The position numbers and the translations under genes were made by a program. A stretch of 7,539 nt of DNA from Desulfobacteraceae bacterium. Its GTDB lineage: Bacteria > Desulfobacterota > Desulfobacteria > Desulfobacterales > Desulfobacteraceae. The notes beneath the pieces were generated by a model. The model was not told where the DNA came from, did not search any database, and worked only from the letters and a program-made list of their open reading frames with translations. Location: positions 1 to 7,539 of the forward strand of contig PIVQ01000339.1 of NCBI GenBank assembly GCA_003354055.1. Direction: 5' to 3'. Below are positions 3,835 to 6,797 of this stretch, one piece after another (position 1 is the first letter of the stretch; every line of letters begins with the position of its first letter).

Positions 3835-3895
3835 CAAACAAAGAAATATTTTTAGAAACCATGACCGATCCTCCTATTGGATTTCGTTGGATAGA

Positions 3896-3926
3896 TTAGG
3901 AATCGTTACAAAATAACTTGATCTAA
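3896..3926 (+). repeat. 31-bp direct repeat, copy 1 (left edge of accessory segment)
   Basis: The sequence begins TTAGGAATCGTTACAAAA and ends ACTTGATCTAA. It recurs in the same orientation at 6041-6071 with one mismatch (T to C). Similarity stops abruptly on both sides. It contains a small dyad, GTTA-CAAAA-TAAC, broken in copy 2. Together the copies bracket the kinase, the MITE-like element and the RiPP precursor. It could be a recombination or integration footprint, or the end of an insertion element. Confidence 0.8.
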
Positions 3927-4004
3927 GGCGTGGGGTCAAATTAAAATCTTCCAGTACACAATCACTCAACCTATATGGATAGCTGTGATCGGAAACACCA
4001 CGCC
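3927..4004. repeat. REP-like palindromic extragenic element
   Basis: The outer arms GGCGTGG (3927-3933) and CCACGCC (3998-4004) pair perfectly. Nested inside are TTCC (3949-3952) with GGAA (3991-3994), and ATCAC (3961-3965) with GTGAT (3985-3989). The 78-nt unit can fold into one long irregular hairpin. It starts at the base after the first 31-bp repeat. The size and GGGGTC start resemble sequences mobilised by REP-associated (RAYT-type) transposases. No such transposase lies in the window, so the assignment is tentative. Confidence 0.4.
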
Positions 4005-4099
4005 AATTACCTGGGAGGTTTATTTTTGACACTCTGCCTAAATACCCTGAAGGGCAGAAACTTATTTCCAAAACCCCTTAAAAGACTGGGTATTTTTAC

Positions 4100-4117
4100 A
4101 AAAGACCCTAAATGGGT
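4100..4117 (-). terminator. Weak candidate terminator after the NHLP peptide gene
   Basis: On the minus strand ACCC-ATTTA-GGGT (4117-4105) is a short 4-bp hairpin followed by CTTTT. It lies about 40 nt after the precursor stop codon. The stem is short, so the call is weak. Confidence 0.25.
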
Positions 4118-4157
4118 ATTTTGAAAACAAAAGATCAAGTAATTTTGGAGCCGATCC

Positions 4158-4514
4158 TTAGTAGTTTGGGTCACCGCCATAGTTTGGATCACCGCCATGG
4201 TTTGGATCACCATCAGGGTTTGGATCACCGCCAAAGTTTGGGTCACCGCCATAGTTGGGGGTGTAGCCGCCCCCACCCACCACGGCATCTAACTCTTCAA
4301 GTGACATCTCATTAGACGGCTCAGGTGGAAAAATCAAATCAATTAAATTATCCGTATTTTCAGCTATACGAACTTCGACCCCCTCCGGGACGATTAAATC
4401 ATTCTCCTTAAAAACTGTCATGGGATCTGCCAAAAGTTTTGCTTTAAACTCATCGTCACTCCATGCCTTTGCAACCAGTTTATCGCAGGCTTTCTGAAAT
4501 TCCTTTGGGTCCAT
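4158..4514 (-). CDS. NHLP-leader (proteusin-type) RiPP precursor with DPNxGG repeat core
   Basis: A ribosomal natural-product precursor of 118 aa. Residues 1-83 resemble the nitrile-hydratase-alpha-like leader (NHLP family): an acidic helical start, DEFKAKLLADP at 21-31, IVPEGVEVRIAENT at 41-54, the IFPPEP segment at 61-66, then MSLEELDAVVGGGG at 70-83, a double-Gly-type cleavage junction. The presumptive core (84-118) is six near-identical hexads: TPNYGG, DPNFGG, DPNPDG, DPNHGG, DPNYGG, DPNY. It contains no Cys or Ser and only one Thr, so lanthionines or azoles are not expected; Asn, Asp, Pro and aromatic residues are the available targets. The ATG has GGAG 8 nt upstream. No maturase, methyltransferase, radical SAM enzyme or peptidase-ABC exporter lies in the window, so the gene looks orphan. 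Membership of the family is inferred from the leader pattern; any product is unknown. Confidence 0.8.
   Translation of the reverse strand: MDPKEFQKACDKLVAKAWSDDEFKAKLLADPMTVFKENDLIVPEGVEVRIAENTDNLIDLIFPPEPSNEMSLEELDAVVGGGGYTPNYGGDPNFGGDPNPDGDPNHGGDPNYGGDPNY
4161..4262 (-). repeat. 18-bp coding tandem repeat (core hexads)
   Basis: Six units of 18 bp (the last partial) encode the DPNxGG hexads of the precursor tail. On the plus strand the unit reads approximately TTTGGATCACCGCCATAG with scattered substitutions. Most changes fall in the variable fourth residue (Y, F, P, H, Y, Y) or are synonymous, such as GAC/GAT in the Asp codon. Copy-number change by slippage is likely. Confidence 0.9.
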
Positions 4515-4573
4515 GCTCTATCTCCATTTTTAACGTAAAATCACGACCTCATCTGGTGGGTTCTTCGACGATT

Positions 4574-4602: not shown

Positions 4603-4693
4603 TTCGCATATTTGATGGACAGGAATTCTCAATATGGTGAGGTGCCCAAAAGCGAGAGCGGCGAGAACCGCTCGATCAGCGAGAGCAGCAGGT

Positions 4694-4721
4694 GGAGAAC
4701 CTTCGGTTGGCCTTTTTTTTT
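4694..4721 (+). terminator. Plus-strand terminator-like hairpin inside the MITE
   Basis: GG-AG-AACC-TTC-GGTT-GG-CC (4694-4712) forms a hairpin with one internal mismatch pair region, followed directly by nine T (4713-4721). No plus-strand gene ends nearby, so its function may be to block readthrough into the element. Confidence 0.55.
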
Positions 4722-4740
4722 ATAGTAAGTGCTGCCGGGT

Positions 4741-4766
4741 AAAAAAAATGGTGCGCGAAGCGCCAC
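4741..4766 (-). terminator. Minus-strand terminator-like hairpin, likely ending the kinase transcript
   Basis: On the minus strand GTGGCGC-TTC-GCGCAC (4766-4752) forms a bulged stem, followed by CA and eight T (4748-4741). It lies about 135 nt after the kinase stop at 4901. With the plus-strand hairpin it makes a near-symmetric, bidirectional terminator. Confidence 0.5.
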
Positions 4767-4900
4767 AATAACTGTTCTCGCGGCTCTCGCTGTTCCAGCT
4801 GTTCTCGCTATTTCACCTAAACATCCAAATTGAGAATTGCTGTTGATAGACAGGGCAATCGCATGTAAACCCGGCACGTTTTTATTCTTAAAATTTTGGT

Positions 4901-5902
4901 TTAAAACCGAAAAGACATTTTTCGCAATTCCTTTACTCTTTCAATAAGCTCCTTCGCTCTTTTATATTTTATTGTGTCATTATCTTCCATTACCCCTATT
5001 ATATGCCAAGCAATCATGCAATGTGCTCCCCATTGTATGTAGGCGGGCAGCATTTTTTTCTCGGTTTCGTTTAGTTTGTAATATTTTTGATATTCATTAA
5101 GAAAAACATACAGAAGCTCTTCTGATAATTTATTATTGATATAACAAAATCCGTGGATTGCCGTCCCAAGTTCATGCAATAAGTTTTCAACACAGATTAT
5201 CTCAAAGTCTAAGACAGCAAGCAATTTATCACCCTTAAACATTGTGTTGTCAGGAAATAAGTCACCATGTACTAAACCCTTAGGAAGCTCTACAGACAAG
5301 GGCTCTTCCAGATAGTCTGTTTGCTCTATGAAATACTCGAAGATATCAGGTTTGGGATAAGCAGCATCAGGAAATTTTTGGATAACAGCTTTACAATAGT
5401 TAATATCTACCCAGTTTTGCTGGGAAAAAGATGTCGGAACTTCCAACAAATTCAAAGCGGCCGCAGCCTTGGCAATCTGTTTTGTTGTTTCTATATTCAC
5501 CTCGGGGTGATGTCCGTCTATAAATTCGTATATCACAACATAATTGTTGCCAAGCATATTAATAAATTCATTTTCTCTGTCTGCAATAGGATATGCTGCG
5601 GGTATGTCTTTATCCTTTAGATATTGCAAAATTTTTATTTCAGAGGCGATATTTTCAAGTTTATTGTATAGATGGATTTTCAGCAGGTAATCTCTTTTAT
5701 CTGCACTGACTTTATAATTTATATTGGTATACCCCCCAACCGTAGGAGATATATTTGTGATTTTCCCACTATTGTATTTATCCATCAACAGCTGAATATC
5801 ACGCATTGCGTTTGTTTTATTATTAAAATATTCCATCGGTATGGAATACATAGCGATCTTAGGGAAATCAACAGATATCTCATAATTAAAACCAAAATTC
5901 AA
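4901..5902 (-). CDS. APH-family phosphotransferase, homoserine-kinase type II-like
   Basis: ATP-dependent kinase of the aminoglycoside phosphotransferase/choline kinase/homoserine kinase fold; cytosolic, substrate unknown. The longest frame (TTG at 5902) gives 333 aa. The nucleotide loop is near GGYTNINY (56-63), followed by the ATP lysine in YLLKI (K75) and a helix Glu (E88). The hinge is YVVIYEFIDG (121-130), the Brenner catalytic loop HGDLFPDN (212-219) has D214, and the metal site is DFE (232-234). The DLFPDN form resembles type II homoserine kinase. Family alignment suggests translation from ATG at 5806 (M33) or 5851 (M18); none of the starts has a good ribosome site. Base composition is clearly more AT-rich than the flanking stator and RCK genes, which suggests transfer. 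It lies upstream of the RiPP precursor but is separated from it by terminator-like hairpins, so peptide modification is only a speculation. Confidence 0.8.
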   Translation of the reverse strand: MNFGFNYEISVDFPKIAMYSIPMEYFNNKTNAMRDIQLLMDKYNSGKITNISPTVGGYTNINYKVSADKRDYLLKIHLYNKLENIASEIKILQYLKDKDIPAAYPIADRENEFINMLGNNYVVIYEFIDGHHPEVNIETTKQIAKAAAALNLLEVPTSFSQQNWVDINYCKAVIQKFPDAAYPKPDIFEYFIEQTDYLEEPLSVELPKGLVHGDLFPDNTMFKGDKLLAVLDFEIICVENLLHELGTAIHGFCYINNKLSEELLYVFLNEYQKYYKLNETEKKMLPAYIQWGAHCMIAWHIIGVMEDNDTIKYKRAKELIERVKELRKMSFRF

Positions 5903-6030: not shown

Positions 6031-6040
6031 TTAGCTCAGT

Positions 6041-6071
6041 TTAGGAATCGTTACAAAACAACTTGATCTAA
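6041..6071 (+). repeat. 31-bp direct repeat, copy 2 (right edge of accessory segment)
   Basis: Same orientation as the copy at 3896-3926, 30 of 31 bases identical, 2145 bp apart. Its last three bases (TAA, 6069-6071) are an in-frame stop just upstream of the RCK gene, and the channel-like linker codons begin at the next base. Confidence 0.8.
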
Positions 6072-6092: not shown

Positions 6093-6797
6093 TTGGACAA
6101 TCAAATTAAAAAACTCGACGGGCATTATATTGTCTGTGGCTATGGCAGAATAGGCCGGCTGGTGACACAGTACCTGGTCCAGAAGTACATCAATGTGGTG
6201 GTCATAGAAAAGGACAGTAAGCATGAAGCCCATCTGGATGAAGATGGCGTCCTTTACCTGATCGGAGAGGCGGCTGATGAAAATGTGCTGATCCGGGCCG
6301 GTATAAAGAGCGCTTCCGGCATCATTGCAGGCGTAGGAACAGATGATGAGAATGTTTTGCTTGTTCAGTTAGCCAGGCAGTTGAATCCTGATATTTTTGT
6401 TGTGGCCCGTGCATCCCGGGATTCATCCAAGAAAACTCTTGAAGAAGCAGGTGCCCACAAGGTGATATCACCCTTTGATATCGGTGCCCGGCGCATGGCC
6501 CACGCGATTTTACGCCCTACGGTCATCAAATTCCTTGAAACCGCGTTTAATGATGAATCAACCGAATTTCAGTTCGAGGAAATCCGTATCGGGCAGGGAG
6601 CAAAACTCGCCAATGTAAGCCTGATGGATTCCGGAATCCGGCAAAAGATGAATCTGATTGTCATTGCCATACAGGATAAAAAAGGGGAAATGATGTTTAA
6701 CCCTAAAGCAGATACAAAATTTGTCATCGGGGATACTATTGTAGTCATGGGAAGTGCAAAGAGCATTAAACAGCTTGAAAGCCTGATGCGGGGATAA
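6093..6797 (+). CDS. RCK (TrkA-N/TrkA-C) potassium regulator, probably a channel lacking its pore
   Basis: Cytosolic regulator of K+ conductance that binds nucleotide or cation ligands. The protein has 234 aa. The Rossmann RCK-N domain starts at HYIVCGYGRIG (11-21, with the GxGxxG glycines 16-21), continues through VVVIEKD (35-41, acidic E39 of strand 2) and ends near residue 150. The TrkA-C domain spans about 160-232. The start LDNQIKKLDGHYIVCGYGRIG is the style seen just after TM2 in two-helix K+ channels (about 330-350 aa), not that of free-standing TrkA/KtrA. No pore or TVGYG filter is encoded upstream. Codons from 6072 (SVRGRQN) also look like channel linker, up to an in-frame TAA inside the 31-bp repeat. 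It may be a soluble gating ring, as made from internal starts in MthK and Kch, or a decaying remnant with an intact frame. It converges on the binding-protein gene, 13 bp apart. Confidence 0.85.
   Translation: MDNQIKKLDGHYIVCGYGRIGRLVTQYLVQKYINVVVIEKDSKHEAHLDEDGVLYLIGEAADENVLIRAGIKSASGIIAGVGTDDENVLLVQLARQLNPDIFVVARASRDSSKKTLEEAGAHKVISPFDIGARRMAHAILRPTVIKFLETAFNDESTEFQFEEIRIGQGAKLANVSLMDSGIRQKMNLIVIAIQDKKGEMMFNPKADTKFVIGDTIVVMGSAKSIKQLESLMRG

Follow-up and report, generated by a model that had tools for sequence, protein, structure and literature searches.

What does a peptide leader of an apparently azole-forming lineage do in front of a core that holds neither cysteine nor serine? The question is raised by a small gene on contig PIVQ01000339.1 of a Desulfobacteraceae bacterium (assembly GCA_003354055.1), of which a stretch of 7,539 nucleotides, here called the window, was analysed at its full length. 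The gene is a real open reading frame (ORF) of 118 aa, read on the minus strand from an ATG at 4514 to 4158. The first-pass annotation, made from the sequence alone and silent on the strand, had seen in it a ribosomally synthesised and post-translationally modified peptide (RiPP) precursor with an NHLP leader and a core of DPNxGG hexads. This observation is confirmed, and the interpretation built on it is partly supported. The reading favoured here, at about an even chance of being right, is that of a genuine NHLP (proteusin-type) precursor whose leader comes from an azole-type branch and whose new, non-azole core is served in trans or is already orphaned. Directly supported are the leader family, the junction and the repeat, as is the existence of a second homologue that shares the core type and has a sister leader; the leader fold is a prediction.

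Residues 8-81 matched the NHLP leader profile TIGR03793 with 66.8 bits against a cut-off of 50.9, and the claim of an NHLP/proteusin-type leader, for which this very search had been named as the check, stands. The best PDB sequence match of the leader is 8TB1, and the predicted model, with helices at residues 3-19, 21-29, 31-37 and 72-79, appears to resemble this solved proteusin leader. The GGGG of the precursor occupies residues 80-83. According to the available part of PMC10858898, the L(X)4L spacing of NHLP leaders lies at -12 to -7 relative to the cut. In the window protein M70 and L75 stand in this register, with Met replacing the first Leu, and Gly80-Gly81 closes the conserved region. 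Because M70 and L75 fit the spacing only with a cut after Gly81, the leader would comprise residues 1-81 and the core 37 residues. The GG junction proposed earlier is thus upheld, while the proposed leader end at residue 83 lies two residues late and the core had been given as 35 residues.

The core is built of six PN-x units, namely TPNYGG, DPNFGG, DPNPDG, DPNHGG, DPNYGG and a last DPNY followed by the stop. The six hexads of DPN[Y/F/P/H]GG type that had been described hold in number; five units begin with DPN and one with TPN, DG replaces GG once, and the final unit ends at its fourth residue. As had been claimed, the 37 residues include no Cys, no Ser and a single Thr, and the core does not have the Cys/Ser/Thr-rich composition expected of azole-modified NHLPs (thiazole/oxazole-modified microcins, TOMM). 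At the DNA level the hexads coincide, in frame, with the sole tandem array that Tandem Repeats Finder reports in the window (period 18, score 134), a score that places the repeat beyond chance; neither a stop nor a frameshift interrupts it. By eye, variation is mostly confined to one position, as noted at first: 6/18 nucleotide columns vary over the five complete units, and three of these six lie in the codon of X, the residue after PN. The statistics of this concentration are weak (P 0.025, or 0.17 once the last base, which lies inside the TTAG of a repeat element, is removed), and they lend weak support to the suggested scaffold with a diversified residue. The core has a GC content of 0.54, compared with 0.43 for the leader and 0.42 for the window. 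Model confidence is low across the core; the calculated monoisotopic mass of the unmodified 37-residue core is 3736.46 Da.

Homologue searches with the window protein alone returned 13 proteins, and 107 when the homologue P0001 was added as a query. The tails of these 107 after the junction are hypervariable, as family membership requires and as the accessible text of PMC4603692 reports for NHLP cores. Taking as core the sequence after the aligned leader, with some cut points imperfect, Cys is present in 77 of the 104 cores of at least six residues, and five lack Cys, Ser and Thr altogether. P0001, a metagenome protein encoded on a 1086 bp contig, has the core NYGGAPDIGPKPADPNYGGDPNMGG and is the only one of the 107 with at least two DPN in its tail; P0095 has a single DPN in a Cys-rich core. 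The P0001 core scored 91 against that of the window, with 42 for the next best among 100 cores. None of 20000 shuffles of the P0001 core reached 91 (mean 36, maximum 84), so the two cores have in common an order of residues beyond composition. Like the window core, that of P0001 has DPN units (DPNYGG/DPNMGG) among which X varies; it holds no Cys, Ser or Thr, and it differs in being shorter (25 residues) and less regular. In a leader-only tree of the window and 101 homologues (six of the 107 were dropped), where the columns are few for the number of rows and the bootstrap was unsettled, the two leaders are sisters with support 99/87; their identity is 73%. Because the P0001 leader is the sister of the window's, the core type looks inherited, beyond what local slippage would produce. 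Most simply read, these sequences point to a DPN core in the common ancestor that was kept, with changes, as the leaders diverged.

NHLP leaders form a well-known family; the DPN core type is undescribed in the sources searched, and the string DPNYGG was absent from the literature searched. A core-only protein search (residues 77-118) gave no score at E up to 10 for any of 175 candidates, a weak test because the repeat is low in complexity. At E up to 10 the core-only search of 389 genomes hit 67 of them, the best match having E 0.0024; none of 17 loci examined shows two or more DPN within an open frame, and none of five inspected had an NHLP at the matched place. Among viral contigs, 41 stretches fitted a pattern and none was a relative. 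Among 72,556 plasmid records five matched, with identity of at most 46.6%, the DPN core not having been looked for there.

What chemistry the leader's relatives support could be judged from a scan of named genomes, which yielded 34 loci. In the metagenome-assembled genome (MAG) OB14, also of the Desulfobacteraceae, the precursor of one locus (L001) comes after genes for a SagB dehydrogenase and for a YcaO that carries a leader-binding domain. A second (L002) has NHLM HlyD, ABC1 and ABC2 followed by a precursor with the Cys-free core IFLSPFGP. At the third precursor (L003) no such maturation gene was recognised by eye, its neighbours not having been profile-scanned. On account of the L001 and L002 loci and of the Cys in 77 of the 104 homologue cores, the branch looks azole-forming, and it includes Cys-free cores. 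The nearest named relatives with a linked set of maturation genes are of the azole type and need Cys, Ser or Thr. The azole-type precursors MprE1-MprE10, modified by the YcaO MprC, show the same 81-residue leader and GG junction as the window protein and a three-helix leader fold like the one predicted for it, with L70/L75 where the window has M70/L75 (PMC12455567 and PMC10858898, in the portions available). In those portions the Cys of MprE cores become azol(in)es, whereas the window core is a hexad repeat with no Cys or Ser and one Thr, and no YcaO was found among the window ORFs scanned. Judged on sequence, azole formation on the window core would be at best marginal.

On the favoured reading, maturation would proceed in trans. 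The leader would be read by an NHLM exporter whose gene lies at another place in the genome; its C39 peptidase would cut after Gly81 and release a peptide of 37 residues. Since the core offers an azole-forming YcaO or a LanM at most one Thr, the product would either stay unmodified or be changed at Asn, Asp, Gly or X by an enzyme of a non-azole kind. On general grounds a DPNx unit would probably fold into a beta-turn presenting X, the GG acting as a hinge. Precursors of this kind are occasionally distant from their modifying genes, as the consulted part of PMC2887384 states. TIGR03793 was matched in 6/6 genomes carrying loci of the scan, in 11 of 291 genomes of the order of G001 (five above cut-off) and in 5 of 86 genomes of the family of G198, all above cut-off; NHLM ABC1 was above cut-off in six of ten genomes tested.

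Several results weigh against this precursor with a core served in trans. The seven window ORFs scanned include none that was recognised as a modifying, peptidase or export gene. Within the genus of G198, in which the placement of the host is itself unsure, neither TIGR03793 nor the protein query found a match in any of 26 genomes, and NHLM ABC1 was not above cut-off in G198, G014, G080 and G041, the nearest four by trkA DNA. A further DPN core was found only once, in P0001, among the 107 homologues. Moreover, the leader shows signs of drift: of the 35 columns that are at least 90% conserved in 89 homologues (those of the 101 with at least 55% leader identity), the window leader differs at five (Y10C, G11D, V51A, L62F and L70M), as many departures occur in only two of the 89, and P0001 has none.

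These points lend themselves to a serious rival reading, which we rate well short of even but ahead of the alternatives below, namely that the precursor is orphaned or decaying: its maturation system has been lost, the leader drifts and the core changes by slippage of 18-bp units. The five departures fit it, as do the long end branch of the window in the leader tree (0.41 vs 0.2 for P0001), the near-identity of the repeat units, the lack of a recognised partner gene in the window and of a TIGR03793 match in the 26 genomes of the genus of G198, and a miniature inverted-repeat transposable element (MITE)-like dispersed repeat that begins at the stop codon. Against decay, the frame, start, ribosome-binding site and array are intact, the leader is still above the TIGR03793 cut-off, and the core type is kept in P0001, whose leader is free of departures. 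Two of the changed positions can be set beside MprE7: position 11 aligns, by inferred numbering, with Ser10, which is among the residues examined at the contact with the RiPP recognition element (RRE), and in MprE7 both Leu are replaceable by Val or Phe, not by Ala. By analogy with these replacements, Met70 may be tolerated. Pairwise leader values against L001 (dN 0.23, dS 1.87; dS not computable against L002 or L003) say nothing on the window's own branch.

Compared with its copies in genome G308, which are about 100 bp long, the MITE-like repeat of the window is longer inside; 59 pieces of G308 match it. Nineteen of 20 stretches examined there hold a copy; 17 span 98-100 bp from GG to CC ends, and of the remaining two one has 148 bp and one 98 bp with altered ends. 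By hand count TTAG stands at both ends of 15 of the 19 (the left G being the element's first G). One tandem pair (L130) has a single common TTAG, which suggests that TTAG is a duplicated target. In the window a 27-bp sequence occurs twice in one orientation (3898-3924 and 6043-6069) and once inverted (4132-4158), and the right TTAG takes in both the stop codon and the final base of Tyr118. Were TTAG a target copy, the stop would have been the gene's own; were it part of the element, the C-terminus would have been set by the insertion. A partial copy of the repeat was also seen at 6038-6071.

Coordinates of the precursor gene, its parts and the adjoining repeat (window positions)
Feature	Position	Strand	Basis
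MITE-like dispersed repeat	3895..4161	.	sequence comparison
Stop codon TAA, inside the TTAG (4158-4161) that ends the repeat element	4158..4160	-	sequence reading
Core, residues 82-118, GGYTPNYGGDPNFGGDPNPDGDPNHGGDPNYGGDPNY	4161..4271	-	sequence reading
18-bp tandem array coding for the hexads, 5.3 copies	4162..4256	.	Tandem Repeats Finder
NHLP leader, residues 1-81, with Gly80-Gly81 end as predicted C39 cut	4272..4514	-	TIGR03793, 8TB1 match, modelled helices
Ribosome-binding region	4515..4533	-	GGAG seven bases 5' of ATG

Less probable, and rather unlikely in our estimate, is a dedicated non-azole chemistry in which a radical SAM enzyme, methyltransferase or epimerase acts along the repeat on Asn or X. 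The regular spacing with its varied position would suit such an enzyme, and radical SAM genes occur in some NHLP clusters, as the part seen of PMC4289311 has it. One such neighbour was found here, a small radical SAM-like ORF (342 aa; CxxxCxxC by eye) directly upstream of an NHLP precursor (L139 1008-2409 in G360); the L139 core, however, is unrelated. Scanning of seven window ORFs revealed no recognisable enzyme for Asn N-methylation, epimerisation or radical cross-links, the chemistries raised in the first-pass annotation. Further, one window unit has Pro as X and P0001 has Ile and Met there, so a chemistry on aromatic X could not serve every unit. Spliceotide precursors carry X-Tyr-Gly sites. 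A similar NYG stands in two of the six window units and at two places of P0001; most window units, in contrast, are not XYG, and no radical SAM gene was recognised among the window ORFs. As an observation apart, L063 (G013) holds a 462-aa ORF with a radical SAM look (CxxxCxxC by eye) and an NHLP-like end of 32.3 bits, below cut-off.

DxNxDG is a calcium loop motif, which DPNxGG resembles. In five units Asp is followed two residues on by Asn, and then come G/D and G; DPNPDG fits the motif, so that an uncut leader-like domain with a metal-binding or adhesive tail, not a RiPP, could be imagined; we consider it improbable, given that the family junction stands in the right register and that the homologues' tails after the same point are unrelated and core-like. 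Least probable of all is a multicore precursor cut at every GG into short DPNx peptides, for although GG recurs every six residues, the GG of the repeats are not set in a leader context, DG replaces one of them, and P0001 is less regular.

Other features of the window and of the genomes compared may be recorded briefly. The trkA-like gene (6093-6797) is 92% identical to that of G198 and 89% to that of G014, the latter outside the family list of G198, and the longest matches of motAB (3-1432) in the genus of G198 reach only 67-75%; these identities make the host's assignment to that genus unsure and hint at a region of mixed ancestry. The aminoglycoside phosphotransferase (APH)-like kinase (4901-5902) was considered as a partner and set aside: its relatives in G269, G234 and G293 (83-85%) have no RiPP-like neighbour, as judged by reading the ORFs of the flanks examined, a neighbour of 145-146 residues is common to two of them, and none of these genomes has a TIGR03793 match. 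Upstream of the precursor, nested inverted repeats at 4619-4843 (arms of 19, 21 and 29 nt) are perhaps another small mobile element, and a further dispersed repeat may end at 4850-4883, where about 33 bp match at 91% at four places in G312. Rfam gave no matches above gathering scores, and seven promoter-like sites against 7.1 expected are uninformative. Elsewhere, G121 has three ORFs of 223-238 aa (L062/L081, L071/L080 and L075/L078) in which the NHLP leader domain occurs twice; the segment between the two domains contains SRRDML and a hydrophobic run, which we take to resemble a signal of the twin-arginine translocation (Tat) type, and L004 310-648 is an NHLP precursor with the Trp-rich core GSGCWWWDWGWWWWGGF.

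A bolder form of the favoured reading can be entertained with low confidence, though slightly more than the dedicated chemistry deserves: the window protein and P0001 would represent a new non-azole class of proteusin core, a DPNxGG scaffold with one varied residue, altered or trimmed unit by unit by a novel enzyme and derived from an azole-type precursor that kept its leader. NHLP leaders direct enzymes to very different cores. A natural example of an azole-type leader on a repetitive core barely open to azole chemistry would suggest that a new modifying enzyme exists, that a repeat peptide is secreted, or that the leader was reused once its pathway had been lost. Two members have been found and no gene set is linked to them, so that this is as yet a lead more than a system.
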